Origin: Climacium dendroides
Taxonomy: Eukaryota; Streptophyta; Bryopsida; Hypnales; Climaciaceae
NCBI GenBank assembly: GCA_950106755.1
Contig: OX467091.1
Span: 13,161,538 to 13,225,537, forward strand
Direction: 5' to 3'
DNA length: 64,000 nucleotides
The position numbers were made by a program, and so were the translations under genes. This document shows, piece after piece, positions 17,050-38,835 of this stretch; the first letter of the stretch is position 1; every line of letters starts with the position of its first letter. The notes under the pieces were generated by a model that saw only the letters and a program-made list of their open reading frames with translations, made no database searches and was not told the DNA's origin.

Positions 17050-17137
17050 TTATGTGATGTCAAGGACTGTCCACATTCACAGATTGAGGATTGTTTCCTA
17101 AGTTCCACACTAAAATTTGATAGCGGATTGGGAATTG

Positions 17138-17612: not shown

Positions 17613-18570
17613 GTGGTGATGGAAGTCATGGAATGCAAGGGATCTGCAACAAACTTGAATTCACCGGCACTGGGCAGGGTGGGTCCTGAATGGGCTGCTT
17701 ACATCCAGCAGCAGATCCAAGCCGCTTTTGAGGCAACCAAATCCCCACATGGTCCAACAAATATCAGAGTGGACGGTTGTTACCTCGTCAATGGATTCTT
17801 CAATGCCAACTACGGGAGCCCTAGGACAAGCCTAAGGGAGGTCAGAAGAATATGACAGCATGAATCTTGACAATAGGGATTCAAAAGTTGCAACTTCTAA
17901 CAAGTTCAGTGGAAAGCAGGGCAGGAGTTGTACAAGTGGTTTGTTCAGTTGTGATTAGTATTCCGAGGCAAACCTCGAGCATACTGCTCAGAGGAAGACA
18001 AAGTGGCATATGCTCTTTCATACATAGCAGGTGTAGCCCAAAATTGGGTGATGCCGATTTTACAGGCTTTAGATGAAGGATGACCTCATGAGTTGCTCGT
18101 GGACTATGATGTCTTCCGAGATGCAGTCATCGTTGTATTTGGTGACATAGATCAGAAAGGTAACGCTAAGGACCAGCTTGGAAAAATCTGACAAACGGGA
18201 TCTGTGGCAACTTACATTTCCGTGTTCAATGAGCATGCTGCGTAGGTGGATTGGAATGAAGCGAGCTTAGTGGCGCGATTTTGAGGAAGGCTTAAAGGTG
18301 AAGTTTTGGATTCCATTGCCATTGCGGAAATACAATCACGCAAGCTCTAAGAGTGGATGGCGATGGCATCACGGATTGATGAGAGACTATGGTTGCGATG
18401 TCAAAATTGATGCCCCGCTACGTCCGTTGCGGTCTCAAGAGATCATGGTGGACGGTTTCAAGTAAACCCGGTAAATTTCAGCCCTGTCTTGATGGAGCTT
18501 GTTGCCATCAGTAGACCATAGCCTTGGCCAGGATGGCTGTAGAGAGATTGGAATACCAACAACAAGGGAG
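17613..18570 (+). pseudogene. gag: Gypsy gag (capsid) pseudogene, 5' part
   Basis: An open N-terminal part (17613-17855, with AAYIQQQIQAAFEATK) is followed after frame changes by the retrotransposon Gag core. Recognisable parts are YKWFVQL, then KPRAYCSEEDKVAYALSYIA (from 17970), GVAQNWV, VDYDVFRDAVIVVFGDID, SVATYISVFNEHAA and EWMAMASRIDERLW. The core should assemble the particle. In-frame stops near 17950, 18074, 18190, 18241, 18282, 18349 and 18409 are nearly all one C-to-T change from CGA, CAG or CAA. The frame runs on to YQQQGRY, where the 18.6-kb element begins; the knuckle resumes at 37223. Confidence 0.85.
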
Positions 18571-18574
18571 GTAT
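18571..18574. repeat. Target site duplication GTAT, left
   Basis: GTAT directly precedes the left terminal repeat and recurs at 37223-37226 directly after the right one. Removing the element with one copy rejoins the gag frame exactly (GRY before, WGCGQLGH after). Confidence 0.85.
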
Positions 18575-18598
18575 AAGGCCTTATTCGTTAAATTGAGA
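18575..18598 (+). repeat. Left terminal inverted repeat, 24 bp
   Basis: Starts with the self-complementary AAGGCCTT followed by ATTCGTTAAATTGAGA. It is identical to the reverse complement of 37199-37222. Confidence 0.9.
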
Positions 18599-18630
18599 CA
18601 AGTGGAGGTCTCATTTTAATTTTGCACCAT

Positions 18631-18945
18631 ATTTAGATTTAAAAAGAGTTCATTAAATTGAGACTACTCAAGAAATTGAGACTTCAAAGACTCAATATAC
18701 ATGTCTAATTATGGTGCAACAGTTTGAAAAAGCATATTTAGATTTAAAAAGAGTTCATTAAATTGAGACTACTCAAGAAATTGAGACTTCAAAGACTCAA
18801 TATACATGTCTAATTATGGTGCAACAGTTTGAAAAAGCATATTTAGATTTAAAAAGAGTTCATTAAATTGAGACTACTCAAGAAATTGAGACTTCAAAGA
18901 CTCAATATACATATCTAATTATGGTGCAACAGTTTAAAAAAGCAA
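18631..18945 (+). repeat. Three 105-bp subterminal tandem repeats
   Basis: The units start at 18631, 18736 and 18841 (ATTTAGATTTAAAAAGAGTT) and are nearly identical. Each contains TTAAATTGAGAC, which is also the inner part of the terminal repeat (GTTAAATTGAGAC), and a second AAATTGAGACTT. Such subterminal repetition of an end motif is typical of transposase binding regions; that role is inferred. Confidence 0.9.
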
Positions 18946-19306
18946 AAAGATTAAAAGATCTCACAATCAACATTTACGCATTTTATTTCTTAGAAATAAA
19001 ATCAAAGACATTTCAAAATGAATACATTCATTGAAGAATATAGAGAAGAAATATTATGGAAAACCATTTTCAATAAACAGAAATCAGCATTTGTTACACA
19101 AACACCCTAGTAGTACTATAATAAACTAAACACTATGTATGCTTGCAAATATATCAGAACATGTAAATGTAGAGTCCATTGTACTTGAAACCTTACAATA
19201 ATAAAATGAACACAATAGAAGCTTGAAAATATATCAACACATGTGAATGTAGAGTCCATTCTCCCTTAACCCTACAATCAAGTCTACTTATGTAACTACA
19301 AACTAT
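18946..19306. other. AT-rich downstream region of the minus-strand gene
   Basis: About 360 bp of AT-rich sequence between the subterminal repeats and the end of the DUF7869 gene. It contains a roughly 80-bp imperfect direct repeat (GAACATGTAAATGTAGAGTC near 19156 and ACACATGTGAATGTAGAGTC near 19236). It presumably holds the 3' UTR. Confidence 0.5.
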
Positions 19307-22165
19307 TCAACCTTCCATTGCAGATTCACTGTTGTTCGTATCACGCGTAAAGGCTACCATTGATGCTTTGATGATATTAATTTGCGGCTTTGGAATTGCC
19401 ACCCTTGGACCTGAAGTCCCTTTCCGAATATGGGGCTTCCAAACTGTCATGATACAATCCATGTTTGACCATGTTGGAGATATTACTCGATCTTCGTGCC
19501 ACACATTCCCTTTTTTGGTGTCCCATCCATCATATGTCTCCATATTGATGAATTTTTCTGTAGCTGGCGTCCAATATTGAATTTCAATCATATGCATATG
19601 CCCTAGATCCAGATTCGGATTTGTAATGGTTCTAGCAAGCCAGAATGGCTTTGGATCACCATCTGCAGGGCGCACTACGACAAAGTACCCTGCAAATGTA
19701 TCGCAATCAACACGAAATGAAGGACGTGGGCGATCACGCCTATGTCCAACAAATGGCACATCTTGTACATCCTGTTGAGATGCCATGACCTCCCTTTGCC
19801 GGCGAATTGCCTCATCTTCTTCAATGACCTCTGTAGTAGGCCAAAAACCATCTAATAATGTTGCACGCGGTTCTAAGGGTGCATCCAAAGCAGCTCTCAT
19901 ACTTTTCCAGTACTCCTTAATAGGACCATTGACCCTCCAGAAATCACCTGATAGCGGATCATCTGCCATTGCACTCCATCTCGCAATGAACCCATTCAAG
20001 CCCTTCTTGATCTCTTCCAATGCTTTCATATTTTGTGGAAGTAGAGGCAGTGGAACACCGCTTGGCACTTTCGGAAGTCCGTCTTCGGTCTCTAACCACA
20101 AACAAATTTCCTTTTTGTGATCTAGCAACCAATCTCTGTCCGTACACAAATTTTTATACTCCATCAAAGGCCATCCAATAGCTGAATCCATATAGAACTT
20201 GAACTGCTGGGATCTCGAATGGCCTTCCAAAAAATCTCGGCCGGTGCCAATGTACCCTTGCACAAATCGCTTAAAATCAGGTACTTCCTCGATCAAATGA
20301 GGAATGACCGGGTGATTTTCACAATCCATGAAGGATTTCATAAACCTCGGAAGTGTGGGTAGTTATTTGTCTTCAATAGACTACTCCAACGGCCAAAAAG
20401 AGCATCAATGTCTTCGTGGGTGTGTCCAACAATGAGGAAGTTGATGTACACTTCGCGGAAAATGCCTTTGTAAACCAAAAGTGAACAGAAAGCAAAAACC
20501 CATCTATTTTTATTGTCACCAGATGCATTATCGAGCTGTAGAGTCAATATTGGTGGCAGAGGATGAGCGGGGATTGCTTCTGGAGGAGGAGGAAGGAGGG
20601 AGTCTAAACAAATCTCCGAGCCATTCAAGATTGCCTTCGTTAATACAGATTGTGTCTCTTCCTGAGAAAATAATTTGCGTGATGAATTCTTTGGTTCTTG
20701 TTCAAGATCATGCAACAACTTTGCAATGGACCCAATGGTATGATTGGAACCTGTTGGAAAAATATCCAGTCCATAATGTGCGTATCAAACGTCCCCATGA
20801 CCATGGGCAATCATACCCGTCACAGCAACAGGCATCTTCATGAAGGAATCAATTGCTTTGGTCTTGTGAGAGAAGTGCGGAGAAGCGGTCTTGGAGTGAT
20901 CCATTTTATCATGGATGATGGTTAGCATCTTCTGAGGATATTTTTCGGACATATATCGATTAGCATAGTACAATAGTCAATAGGCCTTTTGCCCGACATT
21001 ATGAGCATCTAGAATTTGCGACCACTTCTCTTGGGCGTACGAAAGCGGAGTACATGCGGCCCTCAATTGCTTATATTGGTCACATAAACCACATTGAGCA
21101 AAAGTATCCCCACGAGCCTTCGGAGCAAATTCTGGGAAAGAAGCCCCGGCGAATGTTGCTCAAACCACTAGAAGAAATTGGCGGCAAGTTCAGTGTTGCA
21201 TTGGCTTCATTGATTTTTGGCAACTAGTGACTCCACAAGAATGTTGACGGCAAAACCATTGCAGGGACTTTTTCCCCTAATTCCAGCGTCCTTGTCTTGT
21301 GTGGCATTTTGTCAGCATTCGGCAAAATCATAGTTTTAAGCGTGGCAGTAGCCTGCAAGGTATGCATCCTTGGTTTTTTGGACCCCAGATTTCCATGTTG
21401 CTCCGGTTTCTTCCCGTTTTTGGACATTTCCTTGTATCTGTAAAACTTAGCCTTCGAAATCCCATGAATGGTCCACCATGCAGTGGGGCACACGTTTCTA
21501 CCTTTCAAGGTAATCCACTCTTTGCCGAAAGGGTCTTTGTGGATCTGACCATGACATCGAGAAGACACCTCTTTCGATTATAAACTCCATCGTTTACATG
21601 GAGTTGAGTTCGGAGGGCTTAAATTTGCCCACGCGGAAATGGTTGCAAGCAATTACTTCTGCAACATGTTTTGGTGGAAACATAAGTGATTGCTTGAACA
21701 GTGAGAAGGGACTCTTTTTTGGGAGGGAGATCAGGCTCCACCCTTTCACGAGTTGTTTCGTAAGACCTAACCCCTTTCCGAACCCATCGAGTAAGGGCAT
21801 TGACGGCCATGTTGTAAATGTTTGTCTGGTCATGGTCATACAAACTGACACCTTCGAGAAACACTTGTTTGATGTGCCAAGAATGGATTGACCACATCCA
21901 CGCGCACAGAACTTTCTCCTCACACAAAGACTCTGCTATTTGGACAGCTACTCTGTCGTCACCAAGAGGCCTTCCGTCCATGTCTACGACGAGATCTGGA
22001 TCAACATTTTGACAAATTCCATTTGCAACATCAACTCCCACTTCGTTTCGGAGCGTGACAGCCCGAGGATGCCATTTTGCCCTAGGAATCCCGTCACACT
22101 CGGCGATTCCAGGAGGTAAGGTAGGCACTGGATTTGCAAATTCTTCAGGTCCATGAACATCCATT
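19307..22165 (-). pseudogene. DUF7869 DDE-like transposase pseudogene
   Basis: Read from 22164 leftward. An N-terminal part (22164-21619) keeps AWMWSIHSWHIKQ and a Cys-rich segment. Next come CPTAWWTIHGISKAKFYRY (near 21470), MPHKTRTLELGEKVPAMVLP (near 21270), IHDKMDHSKTA and VTGMIAHGHGD (20900-20790). The core at 20718-20338 has LQLDNASGDNKNRWVFAF and VGHTHEDIDALFGRW, which I recognise from memory as the DUF7869 signature. Asp63, Asn69 and the acidic HEDID cluster are plausible RNase H-like metal ligands. The C-terminal 344 residues (20341-19307) include a BAH/Tudor-like stretch GYFVVVRPADGDPKPFWLAR. Damage: TAA at 21619 (one change from CAA), a frameshift near 21560, many stops at 20980-21220, and a frameshift near 20360. 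The start is chosen because TTCAG, a good 3' splice site, lies one base before the ATG. I infer it is the element's transposase. Confidence 0.75.
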
Positions 22166-22364
22166 CTGAATAAAAAAATTCATATACTCGTTAAAGACAT
22201 CTTTAACTCGAAGATAAAGAATCCATTCCATAACACAATGAAAATGACCAAATAAGTTTCACAATTTTGCAGCATCGAATCTAGACAAGGTGAACCTATA
22301 CATGAAGTCTATGTAGCATGTACTAGTGAACTCAAGGCATTATTATATTTCATCAGAATGCTTT
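22166..22364. promoter_or_regulatory. Presumed 3' end of the 5' intron of the DUF7869 gene
   Basis: On the minus strand a pyrimidine-rich stretch ends in TTTTTTTATTCAG immediately before A-ATG at 22164. This is a good 3' splice site. It implies that the palindrome array upstream lies in a 5' leader intron. There is no transcript evidence. Confidence 0.45.
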
Positions 22365-23578
22365 ACCGTCGACTCGACGATAAGAAGACGCATAATAAGT
22401 GATTGATCATCGACAAAATCCTCTTTGTTATGAAAGTTTACTTTGAGTCGACGACAAGTTAGTTTATTATACTTCGGATGATTAATTCAATTGAACAGAT
22501 ATCCAGAGAATTAGTTTACATATCCTTGACTCGACCATTACAAGTACACTAAGGTCATGAAAACCTTTGTTTCATTTCTCTATAAGTTCTCATTGAGAGG
22601 ATGACAGCTGAAACCTAGGAATACCTCGTGTCACTAAATCCTGTCCCTTAATATATTCTGAAGTTGTTCATTAGTTCAGATCCACAACACAATAAGTACA
22701 AAATTCATGATGGAAATATAGTCAAATGGCATTGACTTCCTATGGAAGTTATCGTCGACTCAACGATAACTTTATTTACATAGACAAAGAACAATGAACT
22801 CAATATTAACTAATTCCATAATGGTTTACTTGAAGATGGCATTGTCTTTGAAATCAGTTGAAATTGAACTTCAGCGAGTTATCGTCGACTCGACGATAAA
22901 TCAGGTCTTCTCGTCGAATGGGCAACAATTACAATTGCTTTGCTCAAAGAACTATTTTGAAAAATAATTATTTGAATAACTTCCAGGTTCATAACATACA
23001 TCTCTAGAAATTGATCTCTTATCGTTGGGTCGGCGATACTAGCGAGATGACTATGGCAATTCCTGATCATTAATTCACTCTAAGAAATTATTTGGCTTTT
23101 CAATATTGTGAAGTAATTCTCTTAGAAAATCCCATGCAGTTGAAGAAGGCTAAGTAGTTATCGTCGACCCGACGATACTAGCAAGACGGCACTGCCAATT
23201 CCTGATCATTTATTTACTACAAGAAATTAAGTAACACTCCAATGTTGTGAAAGAACTAACTTCGAAATTCCCATGCAGTTGAACAAGGCTGAATAGTTAT
23301 CGTCGACCCGACGATACTTGTGAAAGGTCTATGGCAATTATTTATTTGTAATTCAAATTATTTTGCACTCCAATTTTGTGAAAGAACTGACTTAGAAATT
23401 CTCATGCAATTGAACTATGCTGAATAGTTATCGTCGACCCGACGATATCTAATGGATGAGAAAAGATGACGTTTTTGGTCTCGTGACGGTATATTTCTCG
23501 TGTCGAACAACACTTCTACTCATTATGGACATAGTTATAGGGAGTTGACTACCTACAGATATCGTTGAATCGACGATA
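22365..23578 (-). repeat. Left palindrome array (about 7 good copies, 130-140-bp period)
   Basis: Copies of the 21-bp palindrome (arm TTATCGTCGA, one central base, complementary arm) start at 22365 (partial), 22749, 22879 (perfect), 23019, 23158, 23297, 23428 and 23560. A half-site lies at about 22444. Spacing from the second copy on is 130, 140, 139, 139, 131 and 132 bp. Spacers between late copies are themselves similar (CCCATGCAGTTGAA, then GGCTGAATAG), so this is a true tandem array. On the sense strand of the minus gene the centre is G-rich, as in the right array. Many copies have an ACC/GGT centre. Confidence 0.9.
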
Positions 23579-24309
23579 ACTATAAGCTGTAGTCATCAGA
23601 ATTTGGTTATTGCTGAAGTGATGGTAAGGAAAAATCTTTCGCATGAAAGAAGTTTCCAGATTTATCGGCGAAAAAATAGGAGGCCTTCAACCCCAACAGG
23701 ACAACAAAAAAATTGAAAACATGAATCCAACAAGAAACTCTCTCATATCAGTTTCAAAAGACTGAAGTAGTGCGCCAAAATCATTAGATGAGTACACTTT
23801 AGAGCAAGAAACGACATAAGAAAACAAATGCTCAAGATTGTGAGTAAAGCAGAACTTACTTGCGACTGAATTGCAACACACACGCTTGCCAAATAAACTT
23901 CTAACCTTGGACGACAAGATACTAGAATACAATTAGAAACGCAGTGTCCAACAAGACAGAAGCTACAACAACAGAAAAAATTCAGCATAGCAACAACGAC
24001 AGTGAAGAATGTTGACGTCGAAGTGGCAGAGAAGATGGATTTTCTGGCAAAGGAAGTCCGTGACACAGAGGACGTAAGCGCGGCAAAAAAAAGCGCGAAG
24101 TTTTGCAATCTTGAGCGCCAATTTTTGGAATTTCGAATCCCCCTCCAATTTCTACATTAATGGCTGTCAGAGAAGGCATGTTGTCTTCGAGGAACTAGAT
24201 TCTGTGTCAGCTTTTTGTAATCGGCGCCTTTACTATGTACACGCTACCTGTAAAGAGTGCATGATATGTAGCGGATCAAAGTTTGCCAAATTCTGCACTT
24301 CAATAGGGC
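23579..24309 (-). promoter_or_regulatory. Putative 5' leader region of the DUF7869 gene
   Basis: The segment lies between the left palindrome array and the telomere-like run, upstream of the minus gene. Its composition is less AT-rich than the flanks. On the minus strand a 65-codon open frame starts at 24179 (MPSLTAINVEIGGGFEIPKI), possibly a leader exon. No promoter motif could be fixed. Confidence 0.35.
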
Positions 24310-24370
24310 TTTAGGGTTTAGGGTTTGTGGTTTAGGGTTTAGGGTTCAAATTTTTTAGGGTTTAGGGTTC
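24310..24370 (+). repeat. Interstitial TTTAGGG telomere-like run, left
   Basis: About six TTTAGGG units with short interruptions (TTAGGGTTTAGGGTTTGTGG and further copies). This is the plant telomere unit. It sits upstream of the minus-strand gene and reads CCCTAAA on that gene's sense strand, as plant telo-box promoter motifs do. Confidence 0.85.
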
Positions 24371-27130
24371 TAACTTTTTGAATGTTTTAAGTATATATTT
24401 AAAAAAAATTTAGAAATAGTGTGAACTTGTCTCATTTTTTAATTTGGGATGCATCTTTGACATTAGTTACAACTATTGGAAAGTTTTGGAATCATTTCAA
24501 AATAGGTTGGACTTCCCTTTGGTGAATGTCCTCCGAAATTTTTCATGAGAAGGAAGTTTTTAATGTTGCGGTTAAAGTACAGCGGGGAACCATCAACCTT
24601 TATATCACCTTGTAAATTTTGAAGAAAATTCAACACGTGGTTATTCCAAAATAATAATGAAATTAGCCAGGATTTTGTTCTAATTTAAAACTCCAACTTC
24701 CTTTAAAAATGTAAAGCCTACTTTTAAAATAAATGGGGAAGTTGCAAATATGTTGATCATTTAAAATATAAAAATTTAAATGAATGTTCACTTTGAGTTC
24801 CTAAAATCATTTACAACTTTGATCTTTGATTGATTTTAAGAAATGAATATTACATGTCAATATTTTTTTCAACAGGATTCATTAAATATTGTGACAATTT
24901 TAATTTTTTTTTCATGAATGTTTTAAAAACACCGGGCAAGTGGGAGAGCAACGATGCTACCATGTGAGTCTAGAAATGTGAGTCTAAATTTAAGGAGACA
25001 CTCTACAACTTTTGAAGGTGCCTATAACAAGCCTATAACATATTAGTTCAATTTTTTCATGTATTTGAATTCCTACTAATATTTTCAATTTTTTTCAGTT
25101 GTGTTTATTTTTCTTGTATATTTTTAGGAACTCTGACTTTTGCCAAATGAAATGCTTTAAGTAGAACGGATGAATAAATGAATGTTTGTTTGTTTGTTTT
25201 GATTTAAAGAAATAAAAATTTGGTTCAACATTTCCATGAAAGTACACCTTTCAAATGATATAAACTTCAAGGTTATATTTTTTCATGCATTTTCCTCAGA
25301 TTTCTACCCATAATATAGATATCTATAAAATAAATCTCCTATAATCATGTATAGAAGGTGTTAATAACTGAAACCTATAATATAACTATTCAATGAGTAT
25401 GGAAGGTGCTTATAACCTAGCCTCTTTTAATTTAAATATCTTATAAAAATGGAAGCTTCTTATAACATAGACACTAATAATTTAAATATACAAAAACCAT
25501 ACAAGGTGCCTATAACATCAGTACCTATAATGTAAGAGCCTAGGCTCTTAGGCTCATGTTTTGAAGACTTTAGGCTCATATTGTTGCAAATGTGAGTACT
25601 AGGAGGGACATCCCTATACATGGCTTTCTCTATAAATTTTCAAACATTTATAGCCTGTACATGACTAGTAATTTTTGAAGTATCTTCTAATACCTTATTT
25701 AATTGAGTTAAGCACTTGTTGGACTAAATACAATGATCAATTTTGATGGCAAGATTTCCTTAGAACTTGTGTGACTATTTTTTTGTAATTAACAAATGAA
25801 TACAATATGTATACATTTTTTTGAATGAGATACATTAAATACAAAGTTTGCTTTCAATGAATTTTCATGAATTATTTATTGGAGTTAAAAGACTTGCTTG
25901 ACTAAATACAATGATTAATTTGAATGGGTAAAATTATAATTTACAACTTCTGTGAGTTTTTAGTTCTTCCTACAACGAATGATTATTGGTAAAACAATTG
26001 TATGTAATTGTAAATAATAATATTGTAGATATATTAAATATGTAAAATTATTGAATACATGCAATTGTTTTACCAATATGAATCCTAATGATGAAGTTGT
26101 TCAATTTGTGTTTTAAGGTCATAAAAAAATCAACTAACCATAAATATTTTAAATACGTTATATTATAATGAGGCCTTGTTTTTTACGAAAAACTCTCAAA
26201 ACAATGATAAGTCTTAGTTTCAGTTGGCCACTAAATGACCAAATTTTTTTGCATATACTAGGACTAAAGTGCAATATTTCAACTTTGCATTATCTTGTAA
26301 AAGAAACCTCATGCAAAGTACCTCTAATTAGCAAAAATGGTGTCTTCAAAGAAAATGAGATTATGGAGTCCTAGAAGTGTAGGGATGATTTTTAGCATCA
26401 CCAGGGAGGCAATAAAGATGCTCAATTTAGTTCCCTCTTTAAAATTTAGAAATAGAAGTATGCATTATGCAAGAAATACTGAAATTCATTTGTTTGAACA
26501 ATTAGGATGCCTTGAATTACTCCAAGAAAGATCTTTTACAAGCCATTCAAGTAAAATTGAACTTCTAAAGTTAGGATTGCATTTGTATGCATGAGGGTTA
26601 ATAAGTCCCAATTACATCAATATCTTCAGCAAAAGTAGTGCGTTCTTGTATACATATATAGTCTAAGGTAGAACCACCCATTTCCGACCAATGACTCATA
26701 TTCAACCTATAGGTGTAGTTATTTCCGACCACATATTCTAAAGATTGGAATGTGATTTTTTGAACTTGTCAAGGTTGGAACTAATTACTTCATCACACAT
26801 GTCCCAAATGAGTGAGAAAGAAAGTAGGAATCAATGAGTAAAAAAAATATTTCTTGAATGATCAGAATTTGAAGAATCTAGACATTGGCCATGGATCCAA
26901 AGCACTTTTTGCTTCTCAAAATTCACTGTAATTTCAATTCAAGCGATCAAATTATAAATTTTTTTTGCAATCCCTGTCATTTCTATTGAGGCACCTCTGA
27001 AAATATTTACTATACCCTATAGTACTCCACATCATGCTACAATTGCTTAAGTTATCGGTTAAGGGTGGTTCTACCTGAATGTCTAGAAATTAAAATGAGA
27101 CAATCTAATTTTAGTATTTTGTGTATATGC
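24371..27130. other. AT-rich middle of the mega-element, no gene seen
   Basis: About 2.8 kb of AT-rich DNA separating the two arms. Short open frames (for example 26168-26374 and 26337-26594) show no recognisable domain. Phrases such as CCTATAACAT and TATAATTTAAATAT recur between 25360 and 25540. A 33-bp segment near 24505 matches one at 35829 (see findings). Confidence 0.5.
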
Positions 27131-28637
27131 ATTTGCACATGTCGTAGTGTAAGGGTATGATTTGCATTATTTCGGGCATTATTGGCAAAGATGGATTTGG
27201 CTATCATTGGCGGGTGTCATTTTGGTAGGATGTGGAATCCGGATATTGGCAGGTATTGGCGGATTCGGCTGTCATTGGCTGATTTGGATGGGCATAGTCT
27301 GGGTATTATTAGTGAAGATGGATCCGGGTATGAGGGTGTGTGTCAGTCGGGTACGTATTGGTATTTGATGCTACCAGACTTCGCTAGGGTTTGGGGGTAT
27401 ATTCTGTATCTTACACGCGGCGGCACGATAGGGTTGCAGGTCGTTTCTTGCGGGCGCTATGAGTAGGTTTCTCGTGGCGAGCAGGTTGTTGCGGGCATTC
27501 TGTGCGAGTGTTGAGAGCGGGTTTCTCGTGGCGAGTAGGTTGTGGTGGCGTTCGAATTGTGCCATTCTTGAGCGGGGCGTGCAAGCAAGGTTTACGGTGC
27601 ACGCAATTTGTCTTGATTTCACTCGATCATTTCTTCCGATTGAAGTATACAATTCTTTGTGAATGCGTAGGTTTACAGAATTACAGAATTCTTCGTGATT
27701 AAGAGATTCCAAGATCAGGTTCGAGCTTTCAAATTTTCAAAACTAGGGTTGGATTTCCGAGACCAAGGTCGGGCTTTGATTGGGGTCGAGTTCGGGTCTA
27801 GGTTGGACTCGGGTTGGGGGTCGGGGGTCGGGGGTCTGGGTTGGGCTTGGGTTGGGGGTCGGGCTCGGGTGGCAGGGTCGGGGGTCATCTCTCCTGAAGG
27901 CGCAACCCTAAGCACCGGCAGTTTCAGAATCTTTTTTGCGAGCTTGTGGTTTTGAGCTTGTATTTTGAGGCATGTGATTGTGAGCTTGTGTTTTGTTTGT
28001 GAGCTTGTGTTTTTAGGCATTGCGGTGTTGTTGCCTGTGAAGATGGAGCGACGGAGCATTTGCTGGTATTTTGTTGGCGTTTTTATTGGTATTTTGCTGG
28101 CGTTTTTCCGCGAGTTTGTGTTCTGGAGGCAAGCAGGCGCGAGTTTCCGCAAGTTTCCGCCACTTTCCGCGAGTTTGTGTTCTGGAGGCAGGTAGGCGGC
28201 GTTTTCCCGCGAGCTTGTTTTTTGGAGCACTGGGATGGATCGTGTTTTGTAGGTTTAGGGTCGCGAGCTTTTCCTTTGGAGGCAAATGGTTTCATTCGTG
28301 AGGACGGAGGGAGCTTGTATTTTGGGGCTTCTGTTTTGGAAACTCTGAGGTCATTTGCTGTTGCTGTTGCCGCGGATCGGTGGTACTTCTCCAATTTGGC
28401 AGAAGTTTGCAGGTGAGGGTTTGTTTTCTGTTTTTGTAGATTGCTTGTTTGTTTGCTTTGTTTTTTGTTTCCATTTTCCATTCTGTTGTTTTCATTCTAT
28501 TTCCGGTTTAGGGTGTTTGCTATTTTGATTATGTTTGTAATTCTGTTGTTTTGATTATATTTCCATTTTCCATTTTGCTTCGTTTCTTTTTTGAATTCAT
28601 TGAAGTTTGTATTTTGAGCTGTGTGATTGTTGTGATA
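27131..28637 (+). promoter_or_regulatory. GC-rich, G-skewed upstream region of the right arm
   Basis: The composition changes sharply to GC-rich with G excess on the plus strand. It holds several short direct repeats: GGGTTTCTCGTGGCGAG (27464 and 27518 areas), CCGCGAGTTTGTGTTCTGGA (28108 and 28168, 60 bp apart), and a dense run of GGGGGTC/GGGTTGG units at 27785-27885. Open frames on both strands are low-complexity and not convincing genes. It most likely carries the promoter and leader for the plus-strand genes. Confidence 0.45.
27785..27885 (+). repeat. G-run cluster (quadruplex-prone)
   Basis: Many runs of three to five G separated by 1-5 bases (GGGTTGGGGGTCGGGGGTCG and more). This satisfies the usual G-quadruplex pattern several times over. 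Confidence 0.7.
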
Positions 28638-28659
28638 GGGTTTAGGGTTTAGGGTTTAG
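28638..28659 (+). repeat. Interstitial TTTAGGG telomere-like run, right
   Basis: Three consecutive TTTAGGG units only about 10 bp before the first palindrome of the right array. Confidence 0.85.
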
Positions 28660-28668
28660 AATTTCAAG

Positions 28669-29410
28669 TTATTGTCGAGTCGACAATAAGTCCAAGCAAG
28701 AGTCCTAACCCAATTCAAAAATTTCGAGCAACCATGAAGCTTATCGTCGAGTCGACGATAAGTCCAACCGAGAGTCCAAACCCAGATCAAGAACTTCAGG
28801 AATTAGTAAAAATTATTGTCGAGTCGACGATAAGTCAAGCCAGGCGTACAAACCCAATATAAAATTTCGAGCATCATGAAGCTTATCGTTGAGTTGACGA
28901 TAAGTCCAGCCGAGAGTCCAAACCCAGATAAAGAATTTCAGGAATTAGTGAGAGTTATTGTCGAGTCGACGATAAGTCAAGCCGAGCGTACAAAGCCAGT
29001 ATAGTCATATCGAGCATCCATAAAGCTTATTGTCGAGTCGACGATAAGTCCAGCCGAGAGTCCAAATCCAGTAAACCAATTTCGAGAATCCATGAAAGTT
29101 ATTGTCAAGTCGATGATAAGTCAAGGCCCGAGTCAAAACCCAATAATTATCAATATTTCGAGCTTCCAGGAAGATTATCGTCGGGTCGACAATAAGTCAG
29201 GCAGGATTCAACACCGAGTAAACAAATTCTAAGAATCAATAGCAGTTATTGCCGAGTCGACGATACGTCCAAGCGTGAGACCAAACCCAGTATCAAAAGT
29301 TCAAGAACGTATAAAACATATTGTCGAGTCGACAATAAGTAATGCCAAGAATCAGAAACCAATATAAACATTTCAACCGTTCATGAAAGTTATCGTCGGG
29401 GCGACGATAA
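28669..29410 (+). repeat. Right palindrome array (11 copies, 72-bp period)
   Basis: Eleven copies of the 21-bp palindrome (arm TTATCGTCGA, central G, complementary arm) start at 28669, 28741, 28813, 28883, 28955, 29027, 29099, 29175, 29246, 29318 and 29390. Spacings are 72, 72, 70, 72, 72, 72, 76, 71, 72 and 72 bp. The copy at 28741 is perfect. Almost all differences in the others are CG to TG or CA. Spacers share AAGTCCAGCCGAGAGTCCAA and ATTTCGAGCATCCATGAAG-like text, and alternate spacers resemble each other. The array ends about 130 bp before the first coding exon. Confidence 0.95.
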
Positions 29411-29542
29411 CAGAACCTCTGTAAAACTTCACTATTTAATGTTTAACACCAATGAGTCTCTGAAAACAGAACTTCTATAGAATTTTATGCCCAAGCTAAA
29501 ACTCATTTAATTCATTAAATCCCCAATCTCATTGCAGCAGTG

Positions 29543-32387
29543 ATGGAAGCCAGCGACAAATACGACTACTCGATCAGCAGTCCCCATATCCAACACTTCG
29601 TGAATCCAATCGACCCCTTCATTGTCGATGACCGGGAGTCCTACGGAACACTATGGGAATTCAAGGACCATACCGACAGCTGGTGTTTTGGAGTCAATCG
29701 ATTCAAGAACTTCATCTTCCTCCGGTATAGAATAAAGAACCAACTGACATATCAAGTTCTAAATTTGAGGGAGAAGGTGACGACAATCGAGCAACACCAC
29801 CACAATTACGTGCTGATTGTGGTGAGGGAGGTGAACGACCTCAGTGAGCAAATGAATCACTGTCACTCTATTGTGATAGACGTGACAAAGCTCCATGGGC
29901 AATTTGACCTGGAGAATCTCTTGATGTTGCTGGAAGGTACAAAGCTGAAATCGTTGGTCGAACAGTTCAGTGAGAAGTACCTTCCCTGGCAAACAACTAG
30001 TGCCGAGTCAATTGCAAAAAGACTTCACTCAATTCTTCAATGCCTGGACCGGTACGCATACGATTTGGTGGAAAAAGAACCTGACTTTGGCAAACAAGCA
30101 GCCACATTCCGGAAGAAAAAAGAAACCTCTATCCCGACCCTGCTTGTTGCTCCTTCAACTTCCGAAGGAAAAGGGAAGCCCAGCCAAACAAAATCTGAAC
30201 TGAAGAAAAGAGTGGCAACGACACCCACGAATTCAAGTCAGAAGCGTAGAAATACCGCTACGAGGGGCAATTCAAGCTCGGCATTGACTACAAACTCTGG
30301 ACTAGCTCCCTTCCGAGATCCAATTCCCGACTTCTTGGCTATTGGCAAAGCTCAACAAGAATTCTGGGCAAACCACAAAGACTGCTTCCTCTTTAACATG
30401 AAGACAGTGATGATAGACATCAAGTAGTGCATACTTGCCAACGATGAGTACATCATCCGGACACTGCAAAAAAATCTAGTCACCAACATGAAGTAGTTTC
30501 TCATTCAAATGGTGCACAAAGACCAGCGCTAGAAGGTTTGTCTCACTCTGGTCGGCACTGACAATAAGCTATTGAAGACCAAACCGTCAAAATGGGAAGA
30601 TATCAGACGAATGCGCTTCATAATCATCAATGGCCAACACAACATTGTAGCTTCGCAGGAGCTACAAAAAGAAAATTGCTCCGCCGATAGGAAAGAGGAC
30701 TTAAAGACTTGGGAAGCTCTTATTGTTTGGACGCAAGACGTAAACAAGATGAGGTACATCTCATCTTTCTACAATCTGACCAACCACTTGCACCACGCCC
30801 AATCCACTTGGGGAAACCAGTTAATCAATTGCCGCAACATCTGGATATTGCTGGATCGCCTAGCATTGTCGAAGACAGAGCTTCTTGACAGAAAGAATTT
30901 GTCAACTTACAGTCCAACAAAATACGCGGTAAAGCTCCCCAACTTATCATCGAGTCGACGATAAATCCCCATTTAGCTTGTTTCTTTTTCTTGATTGATT
31001 ATCTTGTGAATATTCCGATTATTGGGCCCAAAGCTGACATACACGATTGATCTGGTTGTAGAGTTTCTCTATGGAAGTCCTCCAACGGTTTCAAAACATA
31101 AATCCAATCACAGACGGAGCCAAGGTGAACGCTCTCAAGGACTTAAAGAATGAGGTTCAGATAACAACTCTCCCTAACGATTACTGGTTGATGTGGGAGA
31201 AGTTCCTTGAATGGCACCCCGTAGGAAATTTGATTGACCCTATCACCGAAGAACCTTTCAAGGACCTCAAAGGTTTCAAGGAAAATGACCAAAACTTGAA
31301 GCGGGAGTTTTTCAGACGATGCGGTCACTTCACGGACATAGACTTCAGGGACTTTGCAAAACATCTCATCTTGCAAACAAACAACCGCACATGTGGGTAC
31401 TCGAAAGTCTCCGTCTCGAAGACTAGGATCCCAGTAAGCAACAACTACGTGGCTTCCGATTGGGTCGAAAGAAGAAAGCGGAAGAAAGTTATCATGTAGG
31501 ATTTGGTAGAAGTGAAGCCGCGCCTAGAGTTCTTTGATACCACTGGAGACGTCAATGACTTCGTGTGGGGGGACTGGAAGTTGAGGCATAGGTTCTCGTC
31601 AGCGTCTTGGGATTTCTTGCTTTCACACCCAAATAAAGAATATTTCAAGAAGCGACTCCAGAACAACGCTCGTCTGAAGTGGGTGACAGATTTGGAGGAT
31701 CAGTTTCCAGAAGTAATGTACATATTCCAAACTTTTATGACGTTAAAGTACAAGCTTCCGATTATTATAGGCGAGGTTCACATGTGCGCAATAGACACGG
31801 TTGCGTGTTCACTTGTCTCGAACAGCACGTACCAGTACACGGCGTCGACAATCAACTTGGGGGTGTTCGACTCTAGGGAAATTTTAAGGCACACTCACAT
31901 TGACGATGTGGGAGCTGTCGACCGATTTCTCAGCTTCCTGAAAGAGAAGCTTGAGCCCTCCATGACAGAGCCAAACGTGTGGCTCTTTATTTTTGAGCGC
32001 GAGAACCAAAGGGGAGCCGCCTGTAAATTTGCAGCGTACAACCTTCAAGAATTCAACGTCGTGCATTCGATGTACATACCTTGCAAGGCCGAGAACCTCA
32101 ACTGCCTCCCTGTTCGTAAGAGGATAGACTCCGTGCCACTCCTCTTCCTTTTTAAGAAAGGAAATGATTTTGCATCTTTCGTGCGCCCACTGATGCGAGC
32201 TCGGTATGACACCTCCCCGGATTGTGTGTACTATAAGGACCCCACGAGGTGCACGGAGAACAAGTACAAGATGTTTCCAAGCGAACTCTGATTTGAGTTC
32301 TACCTCGCTGTGCTGCAGTCTTTTGCAACGCCTGAGGAAAACATCCTTGGAGTTTACACGGGAACAAAGTTCATGATGGCCTCCAAG
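29543..32387 (+). pseudogene. Large cargo gene 1, two exons, C-terminus resembling a degenerate DNA methyltransferase
   Basis: The ATG at 29543 follows TTGCAGCAGTG, a possible 3' splice site. Exon 1 (29543-30928) stays in one frame over 462 codons except for three TAG stops at 30425, 30494 and 30530. A GT at 30929 and AG at 31060-31061 define a 133-bp intron keeping phase. Exon 2 (31062-32387) continues for 442 codons with TAG at 31497 and TGA at 32289. The N-terminal half is unrecognised, with a lysine/serine-rich stretch. The last 150 residues carry VWLFIFERENQRGAACKF, VVHSMYIPCKAENL, DSVPLLFLFKKG and finally EENILGVYTGTKFMMASK. The last resembles the terminal motif I (VLDPFxGxGTT-like) of beta-class DNA methyltransferases, but the key residues differ. 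The function is therefore tentative. A further exon may follow, but none keeps phase. Confidence 0.6.
30944..30964 (+). repeat. Palindrome copy inside the intron of cargo gene 1
   Basis: A 21-bp copy with one CG to CA change (TTATCATCGA arm, central G, TCGACGATAA arm), 15 bp downstream of the predicted 5' splice site at 30929. Confidence 0.85.
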
Positions 32388-32602
32388 GTAAATTCATTTA
32401 ATCATATCAACCTCGCGCTTGTTAATGCATAATTTGTTGTATTCTGTGCGTGGGTATCATCGACCTGACGATAATTCGTCGGCGTTTCCTTTGAATATGT
32501 TGTATTCCGAGCCTGGGTATCATCAACCCGACAATAACTTGAACTATTGTATTAACTGAACCTCCTGCCTTTGATTCAAATGTTTGGAGCTTTTTTCTAT
32601 AG
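32388..32602 (+). repeat. Two palindrome copies between cargo genes 1 and 2
   Basis: Copies at 32455-32473 (TATCATCGACCTGACGATA) and 32518-32536 (TATCATCAACCCGACAATA) sit about 63 bp apart in a non-coding stretch. It starts with a good 5' splice site (AAG then GTAAAT at 32388) and ends with a good 3' splice site (TTTTTTCTATAG at 32602). The flanking reading frames are not in phase across it, so either an indel exists or these are two genes. Confidence 0.75.
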
Positions 32603-32639
32603 ATTCTATGACAAATCTTCGGTTTCTATACATACGAAA

Positions 32640-34438
32640 ATGGCCGACGTCGCTGACAAAATGGACATGAACGACTTACTTTTCTCCAATTCACCCTACT
32701 CCCTGGACTTTACAAAACCCCACCGTGAATTTCAAAGGGTGGAGGCGCCTCCTTTCACAGAGGAAGGTGACGACGGAGTCTCTCTTTCAGAGGAGTCAGC
32801 CGAAGACGACGTCGTCTTAGAGCCCCCTACTGACGAGACCATAGTCAACCCTGCACTTGTTCCCACTTCAGGTGTAGGCGACAACGACTTCGAGACGAAC
32901 GAAGAGTGGAAGCTCCAAAAGCAAGTAGAGGGTAGGAACTCTCCAGGCAGCGATCCGGACGAGGAAGGAGGCGAGTCAGAGGATAAAGCCGAGTCGGAGG
33001 ACGGAGGCGAGTCGGAGGACGCAAGCCAATCAAAGGACGGAGGTGATGACGACAATCCATCCCCAGAGCTGCGCACAAAGCGCCGTGAGGATGTTAGCGC
33101 GCCGGACTTGAGCCTACGTGCTTCCATATCGAAGAAGCCGACGTGGAAGCCACACCGCAATCCATTGTCGATGCGGTTGTGGAGAAGGCTTTCGACAATG
33201 TCTTGGATGATGCTCTTCAAGACGACATCGTTCCTCCCCCGGCTGAGGAAGGCGATGTTGTCTTGACCGGCACTCTTGGTGCCTCTGAAGTGGAGGCACA
33301 GTTGCCTGAGCGTGAAGTCCAAGTTCTCAATAGCGATGAGGAAATCAACTACAGGCATGAATCGGATGAAGACGACGACGACGGCATTCCCAAGGTTCGA
33401 GAGAAGAAAGTCGTCATTGCCCCTGATGGCAGACCCATGAAGGTGGATAAGATTGGTGGAAGCAGGACCAGGAAATCTGGGAACGCAGAATCGCTCAGGA
33501 AGTCGAGCGTGAGGCGTCTCAAAGGGAACTAGAGGCAATGAAGGCGGAGTTGGCTAGAATAGAGCAGCAAAGACAAGTAGACATTAAATCTGCTGAGGAC
33601 AGACTGGCCCAAATAGAAGTCCAAAGGCAAGCGGATTACCTGAAATTTCAAGAGCAAATTGCTGCTCTAATGGCCATGCAATCTCAGACGCAGGGCGGGC
33701 CTTCAAGCTAGGCAATGACGTTCCCTGTCGCTATCTCCACTCCCGCTCCGCAGCCTTCCTCCACCCCTCAAATCCCTCAAGTAGCACAGCAATTGGTGCC
33801 GCAGCTACCATATCATCGACCTGACGATAAAGTCATGTTGAATCCTCCTGGCGATACCGACTTAGTTCAGTCGACCCCCGCATCACAAATTGCAAGTGCA
33901 TCTTTTGCAGAGCCTCGACACTCTGGAGTTGGAGTTCCGGAAGCAACCGGCCATGCAGAGGCTCTTCGAACTCCCCATGAATCCGATAGTTATCATCGGC
34001 TCGATGATAACACGCAAAGCGTCTCGCTTCCTGCGGCTGAGACAATAGCAGATGAAGTCGATACATCCACTAGGGAGGGTGTCACCTCCCCTTCGCCTTA
34101 TGAAGATAGTGTTGACTATGAAAAAGGCGATGACATTTATCAAGATCTGGATGTCTCAAGTGGGCAGGGCAAAAATGTCGCAGTCGGCGGTGAAGCCCAA
34201 GCGGAGGGCACAGCAACAGCCTCCTCACAGGTATATCAAACAGATCATTACAACTTTTGACGCTTGATCTCTTTTATTTTGTTAGGAAATTGTAGTGTTA
34301 GAGTGTGGTAGTTCTATTATGAAATCTTATTCGTATTCGTGCTGCGTGACAGAATGGCAACGCCAATCCTTGATGGCTCGATTTCTTCGCACGGACGGCA
34401 AACCCGTCCGCGGAGAGGATGCGTCTAGTCAAGTGTAG
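32640..34438 (+). pseudogene. Cargo gene 2: acidic, coiled-coil, proline-rich protein of unknown function
   Basis: The start is taken at the ATG at 32640 (MADVADKMDMND). An acidic region follows with repeated ESED-type units (32940-33050), then EADVEATPQSIVDAVVEKAF, a DEDDDDG stretch, and a clear coiled coil at 33469-33700 (EVEREASQRELEAMKAELAR and a continuing heptad pattern). A Pro/Ser/Gln-rich region lies at 33715-34230. A GT-AG intron at 34231-34285 joins in phase to a last exon 34286-34438 ending FLRTDGKPVRGEDASSQV. It is damaged by a frameshift near 33100-33140, another near 33450 and an in-frame TAG at 33709. The palindrome occurs twice inside this coding region, giving YHRPDDK and YHRLDDN. 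No domain is recognised. An acidic plus coiled-coil layout suggests a chromatin or assembly partner; that is a guess. Confidence 0.6.
33811..34010 (+). repeat. Two palindrome copies inside coding sequence
   Basis: Copies at 33811-33830 (TATCATCGACCTGACGATAA) and 33991-34010 (TATCATCGGCTCGATGATAA), 180 bp apart and in the same frame, encode YHRPDDK and YHRLDDN. Confidence 0.85.
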
Positions 34439-34593
34439 CATACTGTTCTGAGTGTACAGTTTAGTCGGCTGTAGATCAAAACATGTATCATTTTCTTTGT
34501 AAATAAAGAGAGGATTTTCTTTTATAGACTGTGCATATGCATCTAATTGCATTCAATTCATGTTTTTTCCCTCAGCTCCAAAAACATCAAAGC

Positions 34594-35569
34594 ATGCACC
34601 GTCCGTTGCCTGTGAAGGCTCTGCCTGACGACAGCCAAGAGATTAGTGGGATTTGATTCGTGTTTCCGCAATTTGGAAGTCCATCCTTTGCATTTAATCA
34701 AGTAACTCCATTCTCTGTTGTTTTTCTCTGGTCAAGTAGAATCGGAGGGAGCAGCAAGAGACATCGTCTCGAGGAACGTCCCAGTGATAGGGCCAGAAAC
34801 TAGGCCAAAGTGGTTGAACATTGTCTTCGACTTGAACGGCGTTCTCTGCCAAGTGGTTTCAAAGTCCTCTGTTGCAAAGTTAAAGCACTTGCAAATCGAA
34901 GACCATGTTCTATGCCATAGAATCCCAACAGTAATTGGAACCGAGGCTGTATTTGCCCGACCGAATGTTGGCCAATTCCTCCGTGAAGTTTCTGACATTG
35001 CGGAGAGGGTGGTAGTGTGGACCATGATGATGAGGCGCAATGCAGAACCTATCGTGGAACACCTCTTCTACGGTGTCAAGGACTTGTTTGACATCCTAGG
35101 TCAAGAGCAATGTCTAAAGATTGAGGTCTCTGAGGGAAAGCACTTTCATATGGGGGGCAAAGTCCATTGCATGAAAGTATTGTCGGAGATCCTTTTCACA
35201 AGTCCTAGTGGCGGGGATCCGTTCTCAATGAATAACACCCTCCTCATTGACGACTCTCCTACCGAGAGCGTCTGCAATGAGAACGGCAATTCCATCTTCT
35301 TGGACACTTAGAGTCGCGTGAAACGGAGGGACGACATTCTTATGGACGAACTCTTACCCTGGCTCAGGCACCTCCATCTGAACTGCAACGACGGGGACTT
35401 GCGGGGTTATGTCCAAGACAAACGGATTGGCCTGAACCCTTTGGGTGCCCGTGACCTCTCAATGCAATAGACCGTAGAAGCAATGAGAGAGTCCAGTAGA
35501 AACCTAGGTGTTCGATACGAGCTTTTTGGGATAGAATTAGTGGTAGGGCGAGGTCGCCGTAGGAAGTAG
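34594..35569 (+). pseudogene. Cargo gene 3: FCP1/NLI-interacting-factor-like HAD phosphatase homologue
   Basis: Two exons are proposed: 34594-34645 (MHRPLPVKALPDDSQEI) and 34737-35569, joined in phase across a GT-AG intron, giving 294 codons. Conserved features of the plant FCP1-homology HAD family are present. These are IVFDLNGVLC near residue 49 (motif I; the second Asp is Asn, as in the plant DLNG-type subgroup), RPNVGQFLREV, VVWTMMMRRNAEPIVE (motif II region), and NNTLLIDDSPTESVC (motif III/IV, the acidic pair), then a C-terminal GDLRGYVQ as in plant relatives. Active members dephosphorylate serine, for example in RNA polymerase II tails. In-frame TAG stops at 35309 and 35468 break it. 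It sits 156 bp after gene 2 on the same strand and is probably a captured host gene. Confidence 0.75.
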
Positions 35570-35590
35570 ACTTCTCTAGTCCCCGCGTAG

Positions 35591-35650
35591 AGACCTACTT
35601 GTTGTAAATGTCACCTACTTGTTGTAAATGCCACCTACTTGTTGTAAATT
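35591..35650 (+). repeat. Three 20-bp tandem repeats after cargo gene 3
   Basis: CCTACTTGTTGTAAATG occurs three times at 20-bp intervals, starting 22 bp after the predicted stop of gene 3. It may lie in the 3' UTR. Confidence 0.9.
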
Positions 35651-35868
35651 AATCATGTACAATACACTTTGTGGTAAAATAATAAACTCCATTCAAAAGA
35701 GCTTGACACCTAATATTTGATTTTGAAGCTGGGGTTTTTTCTTGTGGCACTTGGTCAAGAGCTATTGGCCTTGCAAAAGGATTACTTGAAAAGTACATCC
35801 CTAACACTTGTATTTTGTGCTTGCTCTAGGTTGGACTGCCCTATGGTGAATGTCCTCCGAAAAGGTAG

Positions 35869-36750
35869 ACGCTGACGAAGAGTCTCCTTTCCAGATCAAA
35901 GAAATCAATCTCAACCTCCAACGAGTCAGTGGATAGGAGCTGCAATTCAGTGGATGGGAGTTGTGACACCATTCCCATATCCAAACCGTATTTGCTGCAC
36001 TCCGCCACGAATGCAGCATCCGCGGCCATAGACTATATGAAGGGGGACGTAGAGGACGGTTTGGTCGACAGTCCCCCAAGTAAAGGCTCGTTCAGGACTC
36101 CCATCTGCTCCCCGTCGCCACTCAAACGGGTGTCTTCGACTCCAGCTGATTTGTTTTCATCTCCTCCGCGGTCGGAGGCCACAACAAGTTGGAGACTCCA
36201 CCTCATCCCCGAACTTGGTGTGGGAAATCATAGACTGGACGATGTTACACATTTGACAACATCCGTGGTGCCTTCAAACTTGAACAAGAGTACCGACTCC
36301 TCTGGTTTTCCAGTGAATCGAAAGTCTACAAGTGATGTTCGGGTACCTCAACTTAAAGATAATTGGCCTTGCCCCATAGTGGGTGTTGGAGCGAGACGAT
36401 TGCTTCCCTCACGAGAGAATATCCATACAAAGAGGTTTCTTCAAAACCGTCGGTGGCATTTGGGCTCCAAGTCCAGTGGATCTAGTACTGTGTGCATACC
36501 AAATGTCAAACTCTTGGTGCCAAAGCCGTTACAAGGATCAAAATCCCTTTCCGCCTCCGAGGCTCCTCCTAGTACCTGCAAGCCACTTCGCAGTGAGGCT
36601 AGAACTAGAAGTATGGAGGTCTCAAGTGTACAGTTCGGTGAAAGAGCATGGCATTCTACTTCGCGACGCAAGGATATTTTGAAAGGCCTAGCAGACCTTA
36701 AGGCATTGGAGGCTAAACAAAAGAGTTGTGTAGATAATAGCGATGCTTAG
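35869..36750 (+). CDS. Cargo gene 4: serine-rich basic protein of unknown function (terminal exon)
   Basis: The frame is open from just after a possible 3' splice site (GGTAG at 35864-35868) to TAG at 36748, about 293 codons. It is the only cargo frame without an internal stop. The protein is rich in Ser, Pro and Arg (PPSKGSFRTPICSPSPLKRV, HTKRFLQNRRWHLGSKSS) and ends in a short charged helix-like stretch (KDILKGLADLKALEAKQKS). A phrase NHRLDDV near 36230 resembles the palindrome-encoded YHRLDDN of gene 2. No domain is recognised. An upstream exon is likely because no ATG opens this frame before 36037 (MKGD). Confidence 0.5.
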   Translation, partial: TLTKSLLSRSKKSISTSNESVDRSCNSVDGSCDTIPISKPYLLHSATNAASAAIDYMKGDVEDGLVDSPPSKGSFRTPICSPSPLKRVSSTPADLFSSPPRSEATTSWRLHLIPELGVGNHRLDDVTHLTTSVVPSNLNKSTDSSGFPVNRKSTSDVRVPQLKDNWPCPIVGVGARRLLPSRENIHTKRFLQNRRWHLGSKSSGSSTVCIPNVKLLVPKPLQGSKSLSASEAPPSTCKPLRSEARTRSMEVSSVQFGERAWHSTSRRKDILKGLADLKALEAKQKSCVDNSDA

Positions 36751-37198
36751 GAAAAAAATGGAAGTTTTGGAGGCTATATGCTATTTCTCTTGTACTATAC
36801 ATACGGCGTATACATCATGCCTATAGCCCCATATTCATCAAAGTGAAGTGCTTTGCATTTAAGCAGTCACTTCGTATATACATAGGACTCATAAGAAATT
36901 AAGAGATTAAATTTTGAAAACTACAGAAGCCAATCAGGGCAAAATTACACGACTTGAATTCAAATCCTTGAGTACATTCAACTTCCAAGTGTGAATTTGC
37001 TTGTATTTTCTTTCCAAACCCTAAACCGGACATTTTTCGTTGTAAAGTATTTCACCTTATTTGTGCACTTCTTTGAAATTGTTGTCTCACTTCTGCCTGA
37101 AACTCTAAAAACTAAACTGTTTTTTATCATTGAGCCTGCAACTTCTTCCTCAAAAAAACTTTAGCATGTGTTTTCAAAGTCTCAAAACTACCATTCTA
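36751..37198 (+). other. Right subterminal region of the mega-element
   Basis: AT-rich non-coding sequence between gene 4 and the right terminal repeat. It contains a telo-box-like CCAAACCCTAAACC near 37016 and AAAGTCTCAAAAC near 37178, the inverse of the TTGAGACTTT-type motif in the left 105-bp repeats. There is no tandem array here like the one on the left. Confidence 0.55.
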
Positions 37199-37222
37199 TC
37201 TCAATTTAACGAATAAGGCCTT
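37199..37222 (-). repeat. Right terminal inverted repeat, 24 bp
   Basis: Reads TCTCAATTTAACG followed by AATAAGGCCTT, the exact reverse complement of 18575-18598, then GTAT. Confidence 0.9.
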
Positions 37223-37382
37223 GTATTGGGGTTGTGGTCAATTGGGCCACATTCAAGCAAAATGTCCAATTAATCCCTCCAAGCCATTATCAATTGCGGC
37301 GGTAGGAAGCAAAGATATAAGTATTGAGGAATTGAGAAAAAGGCGGGCCTGGGACTAAGAAAACCAACTTGGTACCTAGGTA
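37223..37382 (+). pseudogene. gag: Gypsy gag 3' part: CCHC zinc knuckle
   Basis: Continues the gag frame broken at 18574. It encodes YWGCGQLGHIQAKCP, a C-x2-C-x4-H-x4-C knuckle in which the first Cys is Tyr (TAT, one change from TGT). The knuckle normally binds genomic RNA for packaging. Confidence 0.85.
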
Positions 37383-38027: not shown

Positions 38028-38835
38028 ATGGTATCACTAGCGGCTTTTAGGTTATCAACTAAGGGGTCTAAAATTTATATGTTGGAAATATCGGAGCTGT
38101 CTAGTAATGAGAATACTAGGGAACTTATTCCAATTCAATACCATGACATACGTGAGGCTTTTAGTGAAGAAGCATCCAATGAGTTACCTGAGCATGGGCC
38201 ATCAGGTATAAAAATCGAATTTAAAGAAGGGCAAGAACCATGCAATACTAGTTTACGCCCCATGTCGCTAGTTGAATTGGAAGAACTTTGACGATATTTA
38301 GAAGAAAATTTGGGGAAAGGGTGGATTAGAAGATCGAAATCTTCCGTTTTTGTCCCCATTGTATTTGCTCAAAAGAAGGATGGCTCGATTAAAGTTTGCA
38401 TTAACTACCAAAATTTAAACCATGTCACAGTGAGAAATCGGTATTTGTTACCATTAATTCCCAAACTCATTGATCATTTAATTAGATCAAATTTTTTTAC
38501 TAAGTTGGATGTAAGATAGGTCTATCATAGAGTTAGGATGGCGGTTGGTCATGAGTTCAAGACAACATTTAAGACGTGGTATGGGCTATTTGAGTATTTG
38601 ATAATGCCGTTTGGCTTAACCAATGCCTCGGCCCAGTTCCAGGTGCATATGCAATACGTTTTTAGTGATCTATTGGATATCTTTGTAATAATCTACCTGG
38701 ACAACATACTCATTTTTCTAACACCTTGGAAGAACATCAACAAGTGGTATGAGAGGTTTTCAAACGGTTATAGTAGCACAGTTTGTATGCTAAGGCGTCC
38801 AAATGTGAATTTCATCGTAGCTAAGTCGAGTTCTT
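38028..38835 (+). pseudogene. pol: Gypsy reverse transcriptase, degenerate
   Basis: RT landmarks in order: [87 protein letters not shown] and [11 protein letters not shown]. The catalytic YxDD is YLDN, one G-to-A change in a CpG context. In-frame stops at 38289 (TGA) and 38517 (TAG) match CGA and CAG in relatives. A frameshift near 38722 is followed by more stops before the RNase H part. It normally copies element RNA into DNA; this copy cannot. Confidence 0.9.

Follow-up and report, generated by a model that had tools for sequence, protein, structure and literature searches.

A giant multi-gene cut-and-paste DNA transposon family, most probably of Sola type, in the moss Climacium dendroides

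Our interest in this locus arose from a unit of 18.6 kb, which occupies positions 18575-37222 of the window (the whole 64-kb stretch of Climacium dendroides DNA that was analysed) and which carries a DUF7869-type gene, several further genes and arrays of palindromes between inverted ends. The question is whether this unit is a transposon that has moved as a whole, whether it represents an undescribed class, as had been proposed from the window sequence, and what its additional genes are doing there. The two terminal inverted repeats (TIRs) are identical at 24 of 24 bases and the tetranucleotide GTAT is present on both sides, which bears out the perfect TIR and the target site duplication of the original prediction at 18575 and 37222. 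The features of the element are collected in Table 1.

Table 1. Features of the 18.6-kb element and its insertion site (positions in the window).
Feature	Position	Strand	Remarks
Left target site duplication, GTAT	18571..18574	.	read from sequence
Left TIR, 24 bp, AAGGCCTT terminus	18575..18598	+	read from sequence
Subterminal tandem array of 105-bp units (x 3.0) in which TTAAATTGAGAC of the TIR recurs	18628..18944	+	size varies between copies
Putative DUF7869 transposase gene	19307..22164	-	broken in window copy; L028 and L025 have an intact homologue of 952 codons
Stretch with DUF7869 motifs LQLDN...NKNR and VGHTHEDID	20338..20718	-	E 1.6e-28
Palindrome cluster upstream of transposase gene	22363..23579	.	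partly 139-bp tandem units
Telomere-like TAGGGTT x 6, inside the element	24304..24346	+	
Palindrome array upstream of rightward genes	28669..29410	.	11 palindromes, 70-76 bp apart
C1, open stretch, 295 aa	29540..30427	+	no Pfam family at E <= 1
C2, ~450-aa family	31071..32291	+	one internal stop here; no significant Pfam family
C3, acidic/coiled-coil-like open stretches (read by eye)	32571..34260	+	526 open codons in L060
C4, NIF (phosphatase-like) domain	34718..35311	+	E 6.4e-11; L057 copy E 1.1e-14
C5, open stretch, 273 aa	35929..36750	+	no Pfam family at E <= 1
Right TIR, 24 bp, identical to left TIR	37199..37222	-	read from sequence
Right target site duplication, GTAT	37223..37226	.	read from sequence

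In the left flank (14000-18574), every open frame is shorter than 110 aa. The right flank contains a retroelement RNase H domain (38825-39442, plus strand, E 5.1e-31), which is probably part of a degenerate Ty3/gypsy element that the transposon entered. Joining the two flanks by eye, minus one GTAT, yields one short open frame that we take to be gag zinc-knuckle-like, and on the basis of this reading it is plausible that the insertion splits a gag frame. At 57035-58492 on the minus strand, an ammonium transporter frame of 486 uninterrupted codons (PF00909, E 4.4e-81) is probably a host gene.

The check that the original prediction had put first was a genome search for other copies with the same TIR. 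Such copies were found, with differing 4-bp duplications. A search of the host genome (412.6 Mb in 123 contigs) returned at least 69 matches to the left end, of which many are units of a single repeat array, together with at least 41 matches to the right end; these counts are lower bounds because each end search scored 40 candidates. Pairing left and right ends on the same contig and strand gave 19 elements, the window copy included. The first 8 bases of the AAGGCCTT-type left end are identical in all 18 other paired left ends, and all 24 bases are not always so. A perfect 4-bp duplication of varied sequence was present in 16 of the 19 pairs; on the plus strand these read GTAT, CCAT and AACT (two pairs each) and ATAC, GAAT, CGAT, CTCT, CTTG, TTAC, ATGT, GTTT, AGAA and GGAC (one pair each). 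The three imperfect pairs comprise one that is a single base off (C16:456901), one without a true right end (C5:2272588) and one with no match (C37:15663486). Two of the 16 perfect pairs, C1:7412427 and C1:23325528, have nearly identical flanks over 14 bases per side and may not be independent, either because the segment was duplicated or because one repeat was hit on two occasions.

Ten of the pairs span 16.8-20.4 kb (C5:2272588, the pair lacking a true right end, among them) and nine span 24-53 kb. Within the first 10 kb of the nine long pairs, five have a large interruption or an early end (L010, L013, L014, L021, L023), L017 has a gap of ~240 bases and three are continuous (L011, L022, L025); judged from these first 10 kb only, the long pairs appear to carry nested insertions. 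The window copy aligns with the copy represented by L028 and L057 in four blocks (94.8%, 87.2%, 92.1% and 93.8% identity), which together span all of the element except ~0.7 kb at element position 8970-9703. Some left ends match over their first 110-126 bases only, at 80-84% identity, and therefore other elements with similar ends exist. On contig C15, left ends at 502206, 560433, 629430 and 687594 recur ~127 kb apart in two pairs, which suggests that this part of the contig was duplicated, in tandem or in the assembly. On contig C35, two copies (32719964-32738322 and 32745257-32765662) lie in opposite orientation ~7 kb apart, the second having a very long 105-bp array.

The DUF7869 gene of the window copy is damaged by an in-frame stop near 20786 and a frameshift near 20350, and because its transposase is broken this copy would now be movable only with enzyme from another copy. 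Among the 17 left halves examined besides the window (20 were fetched), two, L028 and L025, retain an intact gene, a single-exon frame of 957 codons from stop to stop and 952 from the first ATG. The L028 protein scores 146.3 bits against PF25273 (DUF7869), above the curated cut-off of 26. Seventy relatives were collected at E <= 0.001, the named hosts being the mosses Ceratodon purpureus and Physcomitrium patens. Three aspartates are invariant in the 43 of these relatives that were aligned (the remaining 27, mostly short, were left out): D426 (HDKMDH), D549 (LQLDN) and D591 (GHTHEDID), numbered after P0122 and spaced D-123-D-42-D. As judged from this alignment, they fit a DDD transposase and may be catalytic. 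A sequence search of the PDB returned no relative of the protein, and the word DUF7869, for which alone absence is claimed, is not mentioned in the literature searched. In a collection of bacterial and archaeal genomes, one of 37 peptide-pattern matches proved to be a true transposase relative. This is contig CADCWO010000071.1 (L061; 4.3 kb), filed under an uncultured cyanobacterium and encoding a relative of 47% identity; the contig is likely contaminating plant DNA.

Two kinds of repeat accompany the genes, and both had been noted from the window sequence. The predicted subterminal repeats were recovered as the 105-bp left array. Seven of the eight ATTGAGAC sites in the whole window fall between 18592 and 18892, and in each of the 20 fetched left-end loci between 2 and 20 exact TTAAATTGAGAC matches lie no more than 4 kb from an end; such repeats are putative transposase binding sites. 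The predicted palindromes were recovered too: repeats of a 21-bp palindrome lie upstream of each of the two divergent transcription units, and at up to 3 mismatches the 64-kb window has 20 matches to it, all within the element, against 0 in 100 shuffles. Its 17-bp core, at the same tolerance, has 25 matches in the 64-kb window, again all inside the element, and five palindromes lie outside the two clusters, among the cargo. Conservation of the palindrome columns was 0.92 and 0.916 in the two clusters compared with 0.765 and 0.686 for the spacer, for 11 units in one cluster and 7 of the 9 near the transposase (2 left out), units having been chosen by likeness to the palindrome, which favours the palindrome columns. 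For this reason the 72-bp array is the fairer test, and all 11 of its regularly spaced units keep the palindrome. Many of the differences between units, read by eye, are C-to-T or G-to-A at CpG, as would be expected of methylated sites.

The transposase relative on L061 is accompanied by another palindrome, TTTAGCTCGASTCGAGCTAAA, which occurs five times at up to 3 mismatches and not once in 200 shuffles. Three of these lie upstream and two downstream of the gene, the downstream pair being weaker (3 mismatches each); the pattern was formulated after being seen. Palindrome number per se was rejected as a signal: L061 has three imperfect palindromes of any sequence, where shuffles have 2.0 on average and 4 at most. 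These three share one sequence and all lie upstream of the transposase. In the window, imperfect palindromes of any kind outnumber those of shuffles in the flanks (35 against 14.2 and 33 against 16.4) as well as in the element (36 against 9.3). Because the flanks exceed the shuffles too, only the shared palindrome sequence sets the element apart.

The original prediction had placed a DUF7869-type gene on one arm and four genes on the other. The former stood (E 1.6e-28), whereas the latter arm holds five groups of open stretches rather than four, some of which are possibly exons of a single gene. All five right arms compared (the window and L057-L060) align over ~9 kb at pairwise identities of 92.5-97.7%. 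Open stretches of at least 150 codons were found for C1, C3, C4 and C5 in all five arms and for C2 in four (not L059). Stops differ from arm to arm, and each arm has stops in at least one cargo stretch; C2 is nearly whole in L058 only (448 open codons) and open in pieces in the other four arms.

The NIF domain of C4 is known from cellular proteins. NCBIfam contributed little more, its dullard-like phosphatase domain matching C4 at E 6.3e-7 and falling well short of the curated cut-off. Among the 40 places listed of 109 candidates for C4 DNA, 24 are near-complete at 94-100% identity, one is partial and 15 form a diverged group at 66-69%. Four of the diverged places (on contigs C34, C17, C4 and C2) lie 1.95-1.99 kb from an independently found right end, compared with 1.94 kb in the window; this linkage covers four of the 15, the other 11 not being placed beside a TIR. 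One such right end of the diverged family, L064, was fetched and has the same TIR with one or two changes. Between the families, C4 has a pN of 0.27-0.29 and a pS of 0.68-0.70 (six comparisons; stop codons left out; pS near saturation). Because the spacing from the same TIR is kept in the diverged family and pN is lower than pS, C4 probably joined the element earlier than the split between the families and was then kept by selection, as far as sequence comparison can indicate. Two separate captures of one host gene could also account for its presence in both families.

C2 has 58 relatives. Among C2-bearing contigs of at least 10 kb, 4 of 35 distinct sizes equal one of 115 sizes of transposase-bearing contigs (drawn from 120 listed of 138 matches plus the 70 relatives), compared with 0.007 agreements expected by chance from jittered sizes, which suggests that C2 is linked to transposase relatives in other genomes. 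Taken with the shared DNA of the right arms and the recurrence of C4 beside the TIR, the cargo does not look like a recent random capture. C2 was considered as an N6/N4 DNA methyltransferase and this assignment was rejected (hhalign P 0.1, with 2 of 20 column shuffles scoring at least as high). The alignment, near the end of C2, falls on the FxGxG region of a six-member N6/N4 profile and is not significant. None of 19 C2 members (18 of the 58 relatives plus L058) has a Pfam methyltransferase match. The C2 profile had nine matches in the PDB, at E 0.16 and worse, two of which are arginine methyltransferases (E 0.26 and 0.32) that fall at the same FxGxG region. The possible methyltransferase link, not being significant, is kept as a lead only.

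Results thus far support the predicted 18.6-kb TIR element that combines a transposase-like DUF7869 gene with a cargo of several genes, its mobility being understood as past. The proposal of an undescribed class fared less well and is not supported, because the anatomy matches that already covered by published Sola descriptions. Published accounts give Sola elements a DDD transposase, a 4-bp duplication, TIRs of 11-1124 bp and a size of mostly 2-9 kb, with some over 15 kb (PMC10741241), and Sola1 is listed for Physcomitrella (PMC9033089). The present element shares the 4-bp duplication (perfect in 16 of 19 pairs), a TIR length within the range (24 bp), a size within the range (18.6 kb; ten pairs at 16.8-20.4 kb) and a moss host, and its three invariant aspartates would fit a DDD transposase; in contrast, palindrome arrays and a NIF gene find no mention in the portions compared. 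We therefore regard it as a giant multi-gene cut-and-paste DNA transposon family of moss, most probably of Sola type (a probability of roughly 0.75), a placement made from published descriptions. Within that type we would class it as a probable new variant carrying an accessory set of its own.

Comparable published systems differ from the moss element in detail. In Sola1-1_Ec32 of Ectocarpus (21.5 kb), an accessory gene that runs opposite to the transposase gene encodes a ParB-like and DNA methyltransferase protein of 1104 aa, and its authors suggest that proteins of this kind bind the very transposon that encodes them and modify it (PMC12477816). The likeness lies in giant size and accessory gene(s) opposite the transposase strand, and the difference in the ParB-methyltransferase, where moss C2 resembles, at best and without support, a single methyltransferase motif. 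VANDAL elements with their VANC anti-silencing proteins illustrate the principle of arrays plus a binding protein in plants (PMC5735166, PMC13317346). Like the moss element they have tandem arrays of short motifs in non-coding regions and extra genes; unlike it, they are non-TIR MULEs, with YAGTATTAY as the VANC21 motif, as against a 24-bp TIR and DUF7869. No VANC-like protein was identified in the moss element. Fanzor-bearing Sola2 elements share the Sola type, 4-bp duplications and an extra gene, and differ in AT-rich duplications (AWWT; ATAT, AAAT, ATTT), TIRs of 12-21 bp and the Fanzor cargo (PMC3627910).

Other explanations have to be weighed against a Sola-type family. The absence of DUF7869 from the literature searched, the AAGGCCTT terminus, which goes without mention in the portions of the Sola descriptions compared, and the comparison by description rather than sequence would all agree with a separate, unnamed superfamily defined by DUF7869, whose likeness to Sola would stop at the 4-bp duplication and the size. 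We consider this unlikely, since the invariant aspartates, the duplication, the giant size, the moss host and the opposite-strand accessory genes all fit the Sola descriptions compared. The unit is real, multi-copy, multi-gene and mobile in the past, and its superfamily is probably a known one.

A different doubt concerns the right-arm genes, which could be passengers, that is, fragments of host genes captured in the manner of Pack-MULEs that do nothing for the element. A cellular-type NIF domain in C4, stops in every arm and the 11 diverged C4 places that were not placed beside a TIR speak for such capture; the same DNA in all five right arms, the matching distance between C4 and this TIR in the diverged family together with a pN clearly below pS, and the size agreement between C2- and transposase-bearing contigs elsewhere argue against it, and we hold it to be quite improbable. 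Chance flanking of this region by a small MITE-like TIR, or an integrated virus, might be entertained from the size and multi-gene content of the unit and from the left ends that share only their first 110-126 bases. Either is very improbable given ten pairs 16.8-20.4 kb apart and fetched interiors that match the window. A viral collection searched with few peptide patterns gave 66 and 78 matches, among which no transposase or C2 relative was confirmed, and a viral origin was rejected on this result.

For the Sola-type family we propose the following mechanism. The DUF7869 protein would act as a DDD transposase: it would bind the TIR as well as the subterminal ATTGAGAC repeats, cut out the element in one piece and join it to target DNA opened with a 4-bp stagger. 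Some of the accessory genes, at least, would act on the element itself, and one encoded protein may bind the CpG-rich palindrome arrays and thereby control or de-repress the element. A more far-reaching reading, which we advance tentatively and with some doubt, is that this is a new giant plant transposon lineage with a self-regulation module, whose accessory proteins would read the CpG-rich palindromes upstream of both units and relieve silencing by the host, protein and palindrome evolving in step, as the different palindrome flanking the related L061 transposase might indicate.

These findings offer a putative function, that of a transposase, for the DUF7869 domain, to which Pfam assigns none. 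Because the family is multi-copy and its ends are clean, it makes the accessory genes and lineage-specific palindrome arrays testable as the transposon's own regulatory system, in the setting of an early land-plant lineage where the accessory genes have been long kept.
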